Shown piece after piece: positions 23,470 to 28,765 of a stretch of 38,998 bases of DNA (within the stretch, counting starts at the first letter, position 1; each line of letters starts with the position of its first letter). The notes under the pieces are model-generated. The model was not told the origin of the DNA. It ran no database searches and saw only the letters and a program-made list of their open reading frames with translations. The DNA lies in assembly GCA_005880315.1 (NCBI GenBank), contig VBHB01000089.1, forward strand, positions 1-38,998, given 5' to 3'. The DNA is from Chloroflexota bacterium. Lineage in GTDB: Bacteria; Chloroflexota; Dormibacteria; Dormibacterales; Dormibacteraceae. Both the position numbers and the translations under genes were made by a program.

Positions 23470-23958
23470 CTAGTAGGTGCGAGCCTCCAGGTGCACCTTG
23501 ATCCGCCGAACGGTGCGGTCGAGCACGTCGGCCACCACCAGGTCCACGAGGCCCCGACTCGCGAGCTTGCCCATGAGCGTTACCCGGAACGACATGCGCA
23601 GCTCGGCGCCGGGACCATCCGGGGAAATCACCATCGACATGCGCACCCGTGTCCGCGGCATGCCGGCTCCCGCGCCGGTGATGGTGAGGGAGGCAGCACG
23701 AGAACCCGGATCTGAGTCCTCGATATGCCCGGTGCCGGCGTACGTGATCCTGAACGGACCCACACCCGCCATCACGCACGCCTCGAACCTGTGGTCGTCG
23801 AAGACCCTGGTAAGTCGGCCGCCCGGCACGCAGCCAAGTAGCGCCGCGGGATCGTGCAGCTCGTGAAACACCGAATCGGCGTCGCGGTCAACACGCAGGA
23901 GCGCTCTTCGGGTCAATACAGTCGCGGCCTGCGAGCGGCGAAGCTGATTAATAGCCAC
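23470..23958 (-). CDS. CoxG/SRPBCC family protein
   Basis: A START-like SRPBCC protein resembling CoxG (carbon monoxide dehydrogenase subunit G family). FHELHDPAALLGCVPGG is the characteristic opening; GPFRITYAGTGHIEDSDP and the last helix GLVDLVVADVLDRTVRRIKV agree. The GTG at 23958 (162 aa) has GGAG upstream and overlaps the end of the COG4315 gene by 11 bases; longer frames are overlap with that gene. No CO dehydrogenase genes are nearby, and many CoxG-like proteins are unrelated to CO. Function is unknown. Confidence 0.75.
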   Translation of the reverse strand: MAINQLRRSQAATVLTRRALLRVDRDADSVFHELHDPAALLGCVPGGRLTRVFDDHRFEACVMAGVGPFRITYAGTGHIEDSDPGSRAASLTITGAGAGMPRTRVRMSMVISPDGPGAELRMSFRVTLMGKLASRGLVDLVVADVLDRTVRRIKVHLEARTY

Positions 23959-24475
23959 CAGAGCTCCCCGACGAATCGGTGTCGATCTTGGCTCCGCTTG
24001 GCGAAACCACGTACCAGGCAGCGCCGAAGCTGCTAAGTGCCTGGCCGGTGACATCGCCGGACTTCTTGTCGCCACTGAAGAAATAGAGCGGGTGGCCGTT
24101 GTAGACCACCTCGAGCGTGCCATCGCTGCGCTTCGTGGTGCCGAGAAGCGATGCATTCACCCCGGAACCCGCCACCGGAGCTCCGGCGGTGACCACCGCC
24201 GGCCATACGCCGACGCAGGCGTCGTAGCAAGACGAGGTCGCCCCTTTGTCGGCCTGGAACAGGTACACGGTTCGTCCGCTGCCGTCGACCAGAATTTGGC
24301 CTCGGCTCGAAGTCGCGACCGAGATGGTTGCCGCTCCTGGGGCGGCGGGTGTTCCGGCGCTGGCATTGGGCGCATAACTTCCGTACGTGCCGGTGCCGCC
24401 GCACGCGGCGGTGACTAAGGCAGTGCCCAAAGACACCGCCACGAGCAAAAGCATCCGTTTCAATTTCATCTCCAA
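23948..24475 (-). CDS. COG4315-type secreted-repeat lipoprotein
   Basis: A lipoprotein of the COG4315 'secreted repeat' family (PF03640). A basic, hydrophobic signal ends in the lipobox VTAAC (Cys25), then comes a low-complexity Gly/Ala/Pro linker and two copies of the repeat: ILVDGSGRTVYLFQADKG with SSCYDACVGVWPAV, and LEVVYNGHPLYFFSGDKKSGD with GAAWYVVSP. No biochemical role is established for the family. It follows the second Rieske protein by 22 bases and probably shares its transcript. A Ser/Gly-rich tail ends the protein (175 aa). Confidence 0.88.
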   Translation of the reverse strand: MEMKLKRMLLLVAVSLGTALVTAACGGTGTYGSYAPNASAGTPAAPGAATISVATSSRGQILVDGSGRTVYLFQADKGATSSCYDACVGVWPAVVTAGAPVAGSGVNASLLGTTKRSDGTLEVVYNGHPLYFFSGDKKSGDVTGQALSSFGAAWYVVSPSGAKIDTDSSGSSGGY

Positions 24476-24497: not shown

Positions 24498-25031
24498 TCA
24501 GTTGGCGAGGGTCATCCCATCTATCTCGATCTCGTCGGCGGCAGCGCCCGGGCGCCACGTGAGGTGTGAGAGGGGCGATGTTGCCGGTCCGTGCACGATG
24601 CTTCCGTCGAGAGCGAACTGGGAGCCGTGGCAAGGACAGAGAAAGTGGCGTAGGCCGTCGTCGTACGCATATGAGCAGCCCAGGTGCGGACATGTGATTG
24701 CGAATGCCCGCAGCGTGCCTCGGTCTCGAGTCACGAAGCCTCCGAAAGTCGGGTCCCCGGCGGCGTTGGCCTCGCCGCCATCCGCCATCGTGAAAGCCAT
24801 GCCCGCAGGCGAGTCAAATCGCACAGCGGAGCCCTCCGCAATGTTTGCCAGCGAGGTGCCGAGCGCGACGCGGATCTTGCCGATCCCCTGATTTGCGCCT
24901 CGTGGCGGAAACAGGTACACGGTCAGCGGAGCGACCACAGAAGCCACGGTCGCGCCGAGGAGCCCCGCGATCCACCAGCCGAGAAACGCCCGCCTGGTTG
25001 GCGACTTGGTTCTGTTCACGTTGGTGCTCAT
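24498..25031 (-). CDS. Rieske iron-sulfur protein (QcrA-like)
   Basis: A membrane-anchored Rieske [2Fe-2S] protein. The N-terminal SPTRRAFLGWWIAGLLG resembles a Tat signal-anchor, followed by a helix up to VYLFPP. The cluster motifs are CPHLGC and CPCHGS, with the usual Cys/His ligands and the disulfide Cys pair. I chose ATG 25031 (177 aa); an ATG at 25055 is also open. No cytochrome b gene follows, so it is not part of a visible bc complex and may act with the COG4315 lipoprotein in extracytoplasmic electron transfer. That is inference. Confidence 0.85.
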   Translation of the reverse strand: MSTNVNRTKSPTRRAFLGWWIAGLLGATVASVVAPLTVYLFPPRGANQGIGKIRVALGTSLANIAEGSAVRFDSPAGMAFTMADGGEANAAGDPTFGGFVTRDRGTLRAFAITCPHLGCSYAYDDGLRHFLCPCHGSQFALDGSIVHGPATSPLSHLTWRPGAAADEIEIDGMTLAN

Positions 25032-25096
25032 TGCGCCGACAACTACGAGGCGCATTACAGGTGGGCCTTCCGTAACGACCGTCGTAGTTGGGATGC

Positions 25097-25252
25097 GTGC
25101 GCGATCCGCGAACTGTTCAGGCCGCGATCAAGGCTCGCGACTCAATTGTCGAGCTGCAAGTGACCGTGCTGATGTCCGGTGTCCTCGCGGCCGTCCTTTG
25201 GGTGGCGCTTCACGCGATCGGCCTAGCGTGGCGTACGATCCTCCGCCACTAG
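25097..25252 (+). CDS. Possible small membrane protein (51 aa)
   Basis: A short open frame from GTG 25097 to TAG 25250-25252, on the opposite strand to both Rieske genes and filling most of the gap between them. The product starts VRDPRTVQAAIKARDSI, has one strong hydrophobic helix (VLMSGVLAAVLWVALHAIGL) and ends WRTILRH, a plausible single-pass protein with a positive C-terminus. There is no clear ribosome site. Coding status is uncertain. Confidence 0.3.
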   Translation: MRDPRTVQAAIKARDSIVELQVTVLMSGVLAAVLWVALHAIGLAWRTILRH

Positions 25253-25262
25253 GGCGACGAGA

Positions 25263-25943
25263 TCAGACGACAAGCAGCTCTATCTGTCCGTCGCGGACGC
25301 GCGACTGGATGCGGGGGAGGTCCGGCGGGGCCGCTTTCAATCGGTAGTAGAGAACCTTGCCCGACCACGAGAACGCTGTTTGGTGGCATGGGCAGCTCAG
25401 CCTCTTGTCGGCCTCGTCGGGCTGAAGCTTGCAGCCCAAGTGCGTGCAGACTCCCGAGACGGCTCCAATCTGGCCGCCCTCGTTGAAGACGACCGCATCG
25501 ACTGAGCCGGTCGACACCTGCAACGCATGCCCTTCTGGGAGCTGTTCTACCGCGGCCACCGGCCGCCACTGGGCGCCGTCAGGCGTCAGCACCGCCTGCC
25601 CTTCCGCCGCGGGTCCGATCGCCCCACCTCGAGTCAGCGCTTCGTCGAGGCCGACACCAACGACCGCCGCCGCCGCCGCCGTGCCCAGCGTGCGCAGCCA
25701 GACGCGCCGGGTGAAGCGAGCGTCTACGCGCGGGCTCTCGTCGAGGCGCTCGCTGAGGCGGCGATGGATCCTGTCCAGGGCAGCCTTGTCGGGCAGATCG
25801 GCGCCGGTACGTCCGGCGGCGAGGCCGGCCGCGGCCCCCATCGCCTCGGTTTCCTCCGGCGTCGCATGGAATCGGCGCGGGCGCCGGCCCCGTAAGAGGT
25901 CGTCGACAAACCTCGCGACGCGATCGGCAGCTGAAGATGTCAC
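25263..25943 (-). CDS. Rieske protein with cytoplasmic anti-sigma-like domain
   Basis: A 226-residue membrane protein with three parts. Residues 5-67 form a small helical domain (RVARFVDDLLRGRRPRRF, then DLPDKAALDRI) that aligns without gaps to the C-terminal domain of the sigma-like protein at 26527-27348. Residues ~79-104 hold a twin-arginine-like start (TRRVWLRTLG) and one membrane helix. The outer part is a Rieske domain with ligands C166/H168 and C184/H187 and the disulfide pair C171/C186. GTG 25943 overlaps the stop of the ECF sigma gene as GTGA, so the two are translationally coupled. A cytoplasmic domain, one helix and an outside sensor next to an ECF sigma gene is the plan of an anti-sigma factor; here the sensor would be a redox-active [2Fe-2S] cluster. 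That role is inference. Confidence 0.8.
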   Translation of the reverse strand: MTSSAADRVARFVDDLLRGRRPRRFHATPEETEAMGAAAGLAAGRTGADLPDKAALDRIHRRLSERLDESPRVDARFTRRVWLRTLGTAAAAAVVGVGLDEALTRGGAIGPAAEGQAVLTPDGAQWRPVAAVEQLPEGHALQVSTGSVDAVVFNEGGQIGAVSGVCTHLGCKLQPDEADKRLSCPCHQTAFSWSGKVLYYRLKAAPPDLPRIQSRVRDGQIELLVV

Positions 25944-26497
25944 GCGAGCACCTCCCGTTCGAACTGAGCGGCTTTGCGAAGAGCGCGGAACTGAAGCACG
26001 CGCGCGTTGGATTCCGTCACGCCCATCTCGTGGGCGACCTCGCGGACGCTGTATCCGCGTAAGAAGCGGAGCTCCAGGACCTGCCGGAATTGGTCGGGCA
26101 GAAGACCCAGCAGACGCTGTGCCCGCTCGGACGCGACCGTGCTCGCCGCGTTGCCGAGTCCGGACGGCGGCAGCTGCTCCAGCTCGAGTTCGACGTTTTG
26201 AGCCGCGTAGTGGCTCCGCCAATGGTCCGCAAGCACCGTCTTCGCGGTCTTGACCAGGTACGAGCGCACGTTGTGGACCGGCGCGGGAAGGCGAAGTGTC
26301 TTGAGCGTGCGGATCAACACGTCTTCGGCCAGGTCCTCAGCGTCGGCTGCGTTCCCGACCCTGCGAAACACGAGTTGGTAGATCCCGACCACGTTGTCCT
26401 GGTAGACGGACTCCCAATCCGTGTAGATGGAGCTTGCTGGGTCATTTACCGGTTCGGGTTCAGGGTCGTCGGCGCCTCTGAGGTTGATCACGCCCAT
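25940..26497 (-). CDS. ECF-type RNA polymerase sigma factor
   Basis: A 185-residue extracytoplasmic-function sigma factor. Region 2 runs over VYQDNVVGIYQLVFRRVGN and ADAEDLAEDVLIRTLK with VRSYLVKTAKTVLADHWR; region 4 is LLPDQFRQVLELRFLRGYS followed by the helix-turn-helix VREVAHEMGVTESNARVLQFRAL. The N-terminal 25 residues are acidic and extra. It is coupled to the Rieske/anti-sigma-like gene by a GTGA overlap and begins 29 bases after the sigma-like fusion gene. Its target promoters are unknown; the divergent haloperoxidase-like gene is a natural candidate. Confidence 0.92.
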   Translation of the reverse strand: MGVINLRGADDPEPEPVNDPASSIYTDWESVYQDNVVGIYQLVFRRVGNAADAEDLAEDVLIRTLKTLRLPAPVHNVRSYLVKTAKTVLADHWRSHYAAQNVELELEQLPPSGLGNAASTVASERAQRLLGLLPDQFRQVLELRFLRGYSVREVAHEMGVTESNARVLQFRALRKAAQFEREVLA

Positions 26498-26526
26498 GGC
26501 ACGCCGCGCCCATCCACGGACAGCAA

Positions 26527-27348
26527 CTACATGGGTGCGTTACATCGCGGCCATTCGCCCGAGTAGACGCGCTGCTCCAGCGACCTCATGAATCGTGCCC
26601 TGGGCAGGTCGTTGCCCGCGATCGCGGCGTGCACGCAGGTTGCCGCCAGCAACGCCTGGAATGCAGCCGCGGTCGCTACGAACCTCGGAGGTCTTCGCCT
26701 CGTGACCAGGTGATCGATGAACGCTGCCACCTCGCGCGCTTGAGACGGGTCGTCCAGGGCCGGACCGAATCCCATCTCCGCGCCGATGTCCTCCAGCGCT
26801 CTGAACATCAAGATCGCCGTGGCCTGCTGGCTCACGCCAAGCTGCGTAGCAATCTGGCCGACCGTCCTCCGGCGTAGAAACCGAAGCACGGTCACCAGGC
26901 GGAGCTCACCTGGCAGCGGATCGAGCAGGGCCCGAAGGCTCAGGGTCGATCGCCAGGGCGCCGCCACCTCGCACGCAGGGAAGGCCGACCACCTCAGCGG
27001 CGAGACGCCATACCCATCCCCCCAGTGCTTGCCGAGGGCCTCGACCGTGGCGTCGACGAGCTGTTCGTCGACAGCCATCACCATTTGCGGCAGATCGAGG
27101 CGCCCGAATTCGTTGACGATGACCCGGGCCGTCACATCTTCCGCATCGAGCCTGTTGCCCGTCCATCGATAGGACGTCTGGTACACGGGCATGAGGCAGC
27201 GGTTGAAGACTTCAGAAATCTCGCCATACCTATGACCCGCGATGACCGTCAGATGTGCACCGACTTGTTCCAACGAGCGCATCTCGATCACAAGTACGTC
27301 TTTCGTTACGAGAGATCGACCCAAAGCGGTCGTGTAACGACCTCGCAT
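26527..27348 (-). CDS. Sigma-70-like protein with C-terminal Rieske-linked domain
   Basis: A 273-residue sigma-like protein. Residues about 38-88 resemble region 2 (ISEVFNRCLMPVYQTSYRWT, LDAEDVTARVIV), though they are divergent. Residues 141-192 are a good region 4 (LLDPLPGELRLVTVLRFLRR, then TVGQIATQLGVSQQATAILM). The extra domain at 203-262 (EVAAFIDHLVTRRRPPRF, AGNDLPRARFM) is homologous to the N-terminus of the Rieske protein two genes downstream. ATG 27348 has GGAG six bases upstream (CAGGAGCAGAT); a longer frame to 27630 overlaps the divergent gene and has no domain. It may be a sigma factor, or a decoy that competes for or titrates the partner of the shared domain. Confidence 0.75.
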   Translation of the reverse strand: MRGRYTTALGRSLVTKDVLVIEMRSLEQVGAHLTVIAGHRYGEISEVFNRCLMPVYQTSYRWTGNRLDAEDVTARVIVNEFGRLDLPQMVMAVDEQLVDATVEALGKHWGDGYGVSPLRWSAFPACEVAAPWRSTLSLRALLDPLPGELRLVTVLRFLRRRTVGQIATQLGVSQQATAILMFRALEDIGAEMGFGPALDDPSQAREVAAFIDHLVTRRRPPRFVATAAAFQALLAATCVHAAIAGNDLPRARFMRSLEQRVYSGEWPRCNAPM

Positions 27349-27451
27349 ATCTGCTCCTGGCAGAGGCTCTGCGCTGCCGCGGCCGGCGTGTGACACCCAC
27401 ATCGCACGCTCGGCCGCTCCCAAAAACAGCTCTCGAGGAGAAGGCACCGAT

Positions 27452-28765
27452 ATGAAGAAATCGTTGATCGCATTCGCGGGCGTGGTATTGACGCTCACAG
27501 CCACTGCGGCGGCGTTCGCGTACCAGCACGCGACCGGAGGCGGCACCGTAGCCGCGGCCGCATCTGCTGGATCCGGTTCCGGCGCCATCGTCGTCGACTG
27601 GAACAGGCAGCTCGTCAAGATCGTCAACACGCCCGGAGCCCAACCGGCGACGATTCATCCCACCCGCAGCTTCGCGATCCTGCACGTCGCCATTTACGAC
27701 GCGGTCGTCTCCATCACGGAGCGAGGCGAGCCCTATCTGTTCTCACCCGATGCGCCTGCCGGCGCGCGACCTGATGCGGCGGCGGCCGAGGCGGGGCACG
27801 ACGTGCTCCTGGCCCTCTACCCGTCTTGGCAGACGAGCCTCGACCAGCAGCTGGCCGATGAGCTGGCAGCGGTCACGAACGGCCCCCCCAAGCTGGAGGG
27901 AATCGCGGTCGGCCATCTCGCGGCAACGCTGGCGCTTGCGTCGCGTGCCAACGATGGATCATCCGCGGGGCAGCCGGCAATTCCGGCCGGGACCGAGCCC
28001 GGTCAGTACCGTCCGGCGCCACCCGCATTCACCCCGCCGGTGTTCACGCAGTGGCCGGGCGTGACCCCGTTCGTGCTTCGCTCGGCAGACCAGTTCCGGC
28101 CGCCGGCGCCGCCGGCCGTCACCTCAACGGCATACGGCCAGGCTCTCGACGAGGTCAAGTTCCTCGGCGAGAAAACGAGCACCGCCCGCACCGCCGACCA
28201 GACTGTCATCGCTAGGTTCTGGCCCGGCCCCATCTGGGTGACCTGGAACGAGATCGCCGAGAAGTCCGCGCTCGCCCACCACACCGATCTCACGCGCACC
28301 GCGCAGCTGTTTGCGCTGCTTGCCCTTTCGTTCGCCGACACCACGATCGCCTTCTACGACGCCAAGTACCACTTCCTCGTCTGGCGGCCCATCACCGGGA
28401 TTCGCGAAGGCGGCTATGGCACGCCGGCCACCGCCGGCGACCCGAGCTGGACTCCGCTTCTCGGCACCGCCCCAGACCCGTCGTATCCCGGTGCGCACAG
28501 CGCCATCAGCGCGGCCGGCGCCGCAGTGCTCGCCCGGTACTTCGGCGACCGCGATTCGATCAGCGTCACCTCCGACGTGCTGCCGGGAGTCGTCAGGACC
28601 TTCAACAGCTACAGCGCGGCCGCCACCGAGGCGGGCCTGAGCCGGATCTACGGTGGCGTACACACGCGACTCGACCACGTGGCCGGACTCGAGCTCGGCA
28701 TTGACGTCGCCGGCTTCGTCCTTACCGAATCGCGTTCCTCGGGCTTCGGGTTCATCGGCACCTGA
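27452..28765 (+). CDS. Secreted vanadium haloperoxidase-like (PAP2 superfamily) protein
   Basis: A 437-residue protein of the vanadium-dependent haloperoxidase/PAP2 superfamily. A signal peptide covers about residues 1-23 (MKKSLIAFAGVV...). The oxyanion-binding set is placed as in vanadium chloroperoxidase: K305 and R312 (KYHFLVWRP, spacing 7), YPGAHS with H349, and R398 and H404 (RIYGGVH, spacing 6). Gly347-Ala348 replace the Ser-Gly before the first His, a common variant in bacterial homologues. It may be a haloperoxidase or a phosphatase; activity needs testing. GAGGAGAAGG stands before the ATG. It is divergent from the sigma-like gene across 103 bases and is followed by a strong hairpin terminator. 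Confidence 0.85.
   Translation: MKKSLIAFAGVVLTLTATAAAFAYQHATGGGTVAAAASAGSGSGAIVVDWNRQLVKIVNTPGAQPATIHPTRSFAILHVAIYDAVVSITERGEPYLFSPDAPAGARPDAAAAEAGHDVLLALYPSWQTSLDQQLADELAAVTNGPPKLEGIAVGHLAATLALASRANDGSSAGQPAIPAGTEPGQYRPAPPAFTPPVFTQWPGVTPFVLRSADQFRPPAPPAVTSTAYGQALDEVKFLGEKTSTARTADQTVIARFWPGPIWVTWNEIAEKSALAHHTDLTRTAQLFALLALSFADTTIAFYDAKYHFLVWRPITGIREGGYGTPATAGDPSWTPLLGTAPDPSYPGAHSAISAAGAAVLARYFGDRDSISVTSDVLPGVVRTFNSYSAAATEAGLSRIYGGVHTRLDHVAGLELGIDVAGFVLTESRSSGFGFIGT

Follow-up and report, generated by a model that had tools for sequence, protein, structure and literature searches.

Does a Rieske iron-sulfur protein control a sigma factor across the membrane of a Chloroflexota bacterium? The question is raised by three leftward genes at positions 25263–27348 of the window, the 38,998-nucleotide stretch of DNA analysed here, all of which are present in the open reading frame calls as the initial annotation described them. 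The middle gene (25940..26497, minus strand) encodes a BldN-like ECF sigma factor of 185 aa. The gene downstream of it (25263..25943, minus strand) encodes a membrane-anchored Rieske protein of 226 aa, our candidate anti-sigma factor, and its GTG start overlaps the TGA stop of the ECF gene (GTGA), so that the overlap described earlier is visible in the sequence itself. The upstream gene (26527..27282, minus strand, in an open reading frame that extends to 27348) encodes a degenerate sigma-like protein that ends in a fused anti-sigma-like domain. We consider it probable that these genes specify a membrane-bound sigma/anti-sigma switch in which the Rieske iron-sulfur domain serves as an outward-facing sensor. 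Direct support comes from the architecture, the conservation of the gene pair, the cluster ligands, the Tat motif, the domain common to the Rieske and sigma-like proteins, and a promoter-like element together with its genes; from these we infer the binding of sigma, the direction and chemistry of the signal, the mechanism of release and the role of the sigma-like protein.

The ECF protein matches Sigma70_r2 (E=5e-10) and Sigma70_r4 (E=7e-12) of Pfam, both above cut-off, and has the sigma2 plus sigma4 composition with no sigma3. Its best match among solved structures is 6dxo (E=8e-12), sigma BldN in the RsbN–BldN complex, and within NCBIfam it comes nearest to the ECF superfamily and the BldN family. 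Judged by these profiles, the BldN family is the nearest relative, yet the protein lies outside that family proper, with 65.5 bits for TIGR02952 against an NCBIfam cut-off of 206 bits.

The Rieske protein is built from three parts. Residues 1–75 (25719..25943, minus strand) form a cytoplasmic three-helix domain, with helices predicted at residues 2–17, 29–43 and 53–68 ahead of the membrane anchor. The anchor, residues 79–100 (25644..25709, minus strand), corresponds to the membrane helix noted before and can now be described more closely as a twin-arginine (Tat-type) anchor, TRRVWLR..., with R79 and R80 as its arginine pair. Residues 125–226 (25266..25571, minus strand) constitute the extracytoplasmic [2Fe-2S] domain, which matches PF00355 of Pfam (E=3e-16) and adopts a Rieske fold in the predicted model, with 8hn2 as the best structural match (mean pLDDT 82 for the whole protein and 91–98 for the Rieske domain). 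Both conserved ligand motifs, CTHLGC (25431–25448, minus strand; ligands C166 and H168) and CPCH (25383–25394, minus strand; ligands C184 and H187), are present, so that the C-x-H ... C-x2-H cluster ligands occur together with the fold that defines Rieske proteins.

What does the cytoplasmic domain do? A clue comes from the sigma-like protein, whose extra C-terminal domain (26536..26745, minus strand) is by sequence comparison a homologue of Rieske residues 4–75, a relationship that the initial annotation had missed: BLASTP aligns the two domains with 41% identity over 74 aa (E=2e-5), and a profile of the N-terminal domain matches the C-terminal domain with E=3e-11. Since the domain occurs in natural fusion with a sigma-like protein, we argue that it binds sigma factors, which supports its designation as a candidate anti-sigma domain. 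Residues 1–75 contain neither a cysteine nor a zinc motif, and the Hx3Cx2C motif of class I zinc anti-sigma domains (ASDI) is missing, as it also is from many ASDI proteins (PMC7406223). A three-helix non-zinc cytoplasmic domain followed by a membrane segment is the class III, or RsbN-type, layout, and to this class the Rieske domain is similar in layout; at the sequence level, a profile search of the PDB with the N-terminal domain did not recover RsbN at E up to 10. Profile searches of Pfam and the PDB with the domain returned only chance matches, none of them to a Pfam anti-sigma family.

A structural prediction of the pair was made with locus L012, where the ECF gene, a TAG codon and the Rieske start follow one another in frame with no gap; the ECF protein and the N-terminal domain were modelled as a single chain with the TAG read as Gln purely for modelling, and no read-through is proposed. 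The chain gives a mean pLDDT of 85 and a pTM of 0.66. The third helix of the N-terminal domain has a pLDDT of 90–97 in this sigma-containing chain versus 66–79 in the free Rieske protein, a comparison between different proteins whose gain in confidence would fit docking on sigma and is supportive only. Contact between sigma and the N-terminal domain, which the earlier proposal had also named as a test, thus has only indirect support, from this helix and from the natural fusion. No sigma/anti-sigma interface is claimed from the fusion model, for which the Foldseek match recovers the sigma domains and no known arrangement.

Conservation of the ECF–Rieske pair had been set beforehand as a test of the proposal, and the pair proved to be widespread. 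A search of 400 genomes of the phylum gave matches, many of them full length, in 188 genomes, two of which are MAGs that bear the name Chloroflexi. Among the loci examined, a same-strand ECF gene immediately precedes the gene of each of 85 non-redundant Rieske proteins that carry the N-terminal domain; these come from at least 14 Chloroflexota families, and the two genes usually overlap, most often by 4 or 8 nt. The adjacency to a sigma gene expected of an anti-sigma factor is therefore seen at 85 loci, where the two genes are presumably co-transcribed, and since the pair recurs across the phylum we reject chance as its source. The genome of the window itself holds a second, diverged ECF–Rieske pair (L002), the Rieske protein of which is 40% identical. 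When 151 genomes were searched with the N-domain profile, 31 strong matches were inspected, with a few weak ones (E 1e-5 to 3e-4) outside this inspection: 29 lie on a Rieske protein, one on a fragment at a contig end and one on the sigma-like protein, and an ECF gene is nearby for 30 of the 31. Among strong matches, the domain thus occurs only on Rieske proteins or the sigma-like protein, while no ECF gene stands beside eight Rieske loci that lack it. This distribution supports, at the level of sequence, an anti-sigma domain joined to a Rieske sensor. Evolutionary distances of the ECF proteins and the N-terminal domains are correlated (r=0.81, permutation maximum 0.08), a correlation that partly reflects shared ancestry and is no proof of contact.

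Clade-wise alignment of upstream regions yielded the element GTAAC(C)-N6/7-CGTA, which precedes about 77 of the 85 ECF–Rieske operons and none of the eight control Rieske genes without the N-terminal domain. The form GTAAC-N8-GTA lies within 300 nt of 58 of the 85 operons, where 0.3 would be expected, and within 800 nt of 64, and 13 more have a form that is one base shorter. At the locus under study, GTAAC-N8-GTA lies before the ECF–Rieske operon, inside the sigma-like gene at its 3′ end (26528..26543, minus strand), and GTAAC-N6-CGTA is found both 12 nt ahead of the sigma-like gene's ATG 27282 (27295..27309, minus strand) and 10 nt before a GTG (25072..25086, plus strand); these three sites fall within 2.3 kb. 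Both ECF–Rieske operons of the genome carry the element. The whole genome contains 15 N8-GTA and 6 N6-CGTA sites, each fewer than its reversed-pattern control, and none of the 15 N8-GTA sites adjoins any of the other ECF genes listed for the genome. Across the family the element is sparse, at about three sites per genome, which is fewer than the reversed control gives, and single targets therefore need confirmation.

The words of the element are those of BldN promoters, CGTAAC-N16-CGTTGA (PMC2375139), with a spacer of 6–7 bp in place of 16 bp, which sets it apart from a BldN promoter. The difference of 9–10 bp is about one helical turn, and the compact element does not fit standard sigma/RNA polymerase geometry. 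Canonical spacing of GTAAC to CGT (14–20 bp) was looked for upstream of the operons and is absent, and a blind search for two-word motifs with spacers of 15–19 bp gave nothing clearly above shuffles. There are two readings: the ECF proteins recognise a promoter of this compact form, or another protein occupies part of the element. Tentatively, and at somewhat less than an even chance, we propose a Rieske-sensing ECF family that uses GTAAC/CGTA promoters 6–7 bp apart, roughly one turn of DNA below known ECF promoters. It is nearly as credible, if a little more doubtful, that GTAAC-N6/7-CGTA is the operator of another DNA-binding protein and that the ECF promoter lies elsewhere; the spacer, 9–10 bp below the 16 bp of BldN (PMC2375139), speaks for an operator, in that standard holoenzyme geometry would not fit it. 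Several features speak against an operator: the two words equal the −35 and −10 words of BldN, no other conserved element surrounds the sites, the genome's other ECF genes are without the element, and the sites are oriented towards their genes, whose start codons peak 9–14 nt downstream of CGTA, the distance expected if CGTA is the −10 element of mRNAs with a short leader or none.

The genes behind the element bear on what the sigma factor would control, and they mostly encode secreted proteins. In the window's own genome these include Lipoprotein_15, CHRD/SOD-like and other secreted protein genes. In relatives, a haloperoxidase-like gene beside the Rieske gene has a perfect element (L183, genome G354), a cupredoxin lipoprotein gene lies behind the element at L186, and a secreted protein at L191 resembles one found behind two sites of the own genome. 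The regulatory role that had been put forward for the three genes gains support from this set of secreted redox-type protein genes and from the conserved element before the operon. A nucleotidyltransferase-like protein ('SVAGSLASGGFR..DDVDLNLIVDDG'), whose first 150 residues have no Pfam match, is encoded behind the element in six relatives (L192, L195, L197, L198, L199 and L201) and in the own genome (G000:C90:88655). In two related genomes (L181 and L184) the element stands 16 nt upstream of the start of a different ECF sigma gene, suggesting a sigma cascade.

Near the locus, the element at 25072 would serve a possible 51-aa single-helix membrane protein recognised by translation (25097..25252, plus strand) and opened by the GTG behind that element. 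Its gene is convergent with the Rieske gene, and a 90% identical copy occurs in just a single further genome of the genus. A Lipoprotein_15 family lipoprotein gene (23948..24475, minus strand; PF03640, E=3e-27) is also present, and a member of this family elsewhere in the genome carries the element. The divergent gene on the other side encodes a PAP2/vanadium-haloperoxidase-like protein (27452..28765, plus strand; PF01569, E=2e-13) with a weak element, one mismatch, upstream at 27334–27349 (plus strand); the gene with the perfect element at L183 is similar to it.

The sigma-like gene stands under the same element. That it is a sigma-like gene with an additional C-terminal domain holds as first described; its start probably does not, since the element lies 12 nt upstream of ATG 27282, as another lies 12 nt before the ATG of the orthologue in another genus, and ATG 27282 is thus the most likely start rather than 27348. 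The protein aligns to the ECF protein across both sigma domains (32%, E=8e-20). It may still function as a sigma factor whose C-terminal domain regulates it in cis, a possibility to which its retained Sigma70_r4 match (E=1.5e-6) and a dN/dS of 0.18 within the genus, indicating purifying selection, lend some weight. We regard this as rather unlikely, because region 2.3/2.4 is degenerate in the alignment with ECF proteins, Sigma70_r4 is the only Pfam match and Sigma70_r2 finds none, and the gene evolves faster than the ECF gene. Instead of a working sigma factor, we favour a probable cytoplasmic brake, a protein made from the same element that has the shared domain and lacks a sensor.

We turn to the signal. 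In the family alignment, 79 of the 83 complete Rieske proteins retain the cluster ligands and the additional cysteine pair; R79 is conserved in 100% and R80 in 94%, RR is present in 84 of 85 proteins, and the anchor has a mean peak hydropathy of 1.78 over 84 proteins. From the conserved cluster ligands, redox sensing may be deduced. Tyr after CPCH raises the potential in bc1 proteins, as bc1 mutants demonstrate, and 95% of the family have Phe at this position; a midpoint potential lower than that of bc1 is therefore expected. In four proteins (L018, L034, L047 and L077) Asp replaces the first His ligand, so that not every member strictly needs the complete set of Rieske ligands. In these proteins the cluster may be Asp-ligated or lost. 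The first ligand motif of these four reads CTDQGC twice, CSDLPC and CTDVGC, and they come from at least three families.

The main rival on mechanism keeps the anti-sigma function and changes the signal: the Rieske protein would sense cofactor supply or Tat export rather than the redox state outside, with an unloaded or unexported protein failing to hold or release sigma. Tat substrates are exported folded, and this, together with the invariant twin-arginine and the conserved ligands, speaks for such a signal. We nevertheless think such a signal unlikely, given that the element-bearing genes are mostly of the secreted redox type and that none of those found encodes Fe-S assembly or Tat components.

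The gene directly after the anti-sigma candidate encodes another Rieske protein, which is PetC-like and lacks the N-terminal domain (24498..25055, minus strand; PF00355, E=4e-11, with a weak PetC anchor). Its position is kept in another genus (L037), no cytochrome b is seen beside it, and it is a possible redox partner. That the candidate itself is merely an electron-transfer protein under ECF control, its N-terminal domain being a targeting or assembly extension, would agree with the usual role of Rieske proteins as electron carriers and with the PetC-like gene next door, but is very improbable because the domain is confined to proteins with an ECF neighbour and has a counterpart joined to a sigma-like protein, and because the eight Rieske loci without it have no ECF neighbour.

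With outward redox sensing as the preferred reading, the switch could operate as follows. At the membrane, the three cytoplasmic helices of the Rieske protein would bind the BldN-like ECF factor and keep it from acting. The [2Fe-2S] cluster would be loaded into the Rieske domain in the cytoplasm, after which Tat would export the folded domain while the anti-sigma domain stays in the cytoplasm. Outside, the cluster might be oxidised, reduced, or lost under oxidants, and this might alter the anchor or trigger its proteolysis; either event could free the sigma factor. Once free, sigma would transcribe the operon that encodes it, along with a few secreted-protein genes, from GTAAC(C)-N6/7-CGTA elements. 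The sigma-like protein, made under the same element, would probably restrain the response from the cytoplasm.

The Rieske protein looks like an anti-sigma factor with a new type of sensor. The earlier remark that no characterised anti-sigma factor is known to use a Rieske domain agrees with our search of the open-access literature, in which no Rieske anti-sigma factor or Rieske–ECF system was found; the main ECF catalogue lay outside this search, and absence there is not established. The iron-sulfur anti-sigma factors that we found described, RsmA and RshA, are cytoplasmic and not of the Rieske type, and if a sigma factor is indeed linked to an exported Rieske cluster, the cell would have a direct means of reading redox conditions beyond its membrane. 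Should the element be a sigma target, the compact promoter would challenge the fixed −35/−10 geometry of bacterial promoters, and sigma or an extra protein would contact promoter DNA in a way unseen so far. Chloroflexota are an abundant soil phylum that is poorly studied, and the pair, being widespread, simple (two genes) and equipped with a ready reporter promoter, is quick to test.

Several known systems invite comparison with the candidate. To our knowledge, RsbN has no Rieske domain. The BldN/RsbN system of Streptomyces is alike in that BldN is the closest solved ECF protein and in that the promoter words CGTAAC and CGTT are common to both (PMC2375139). RsbN is a membrane-anchored anti-sigma factor of three short helices and the founding member of the class III anti-sigma domains (PMC7406223, PMC8103513), but no sequence similarity between it and the Rieske N-terminal domain was detected. 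ECF41 and ECF56 resemble the sigma-like gene, as sigma factors with a fused C-terminal regulatory domain and a conserved autoregulatory promoter motif. ECF41 promoters have a spacer of 16 ± 1 bp, and the group includes Chloroflexi members (PMC3426412); the extension of ECF56 is a SnoaL-type domain (PMC7730460), whereas that of the sigma-like gene is an anti-sigma-like domain. RsmA and RshA of Actinobacteria are anti-sigma factors with a bound [2Fe-2S] cluster; RshA has cysteines as cluster ligands and carries the zinc-anti-sigma motif, RsmA belongs to the HATPase_c family, and neither a Rieske fold nor export is described for them (PMC3427169). As for the Rieske subunit of bc/b6f complexes, the candidate scores below the NCBIfam cut-offs for such subunits, no cytochrome b occurs among the open reading frames around it in the window, and the genome's cytochrome b adjoins another Rieske gene (L006). 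With these subunits the candidate shares the Tat-type anchor, the Rieske fold, the C-x-H-x2-C ... C-x-C-H ligand pattern and the extra cysteine pair, but it differs from them in its 75-aa cytoplasmic extension and its ECF neighbour.
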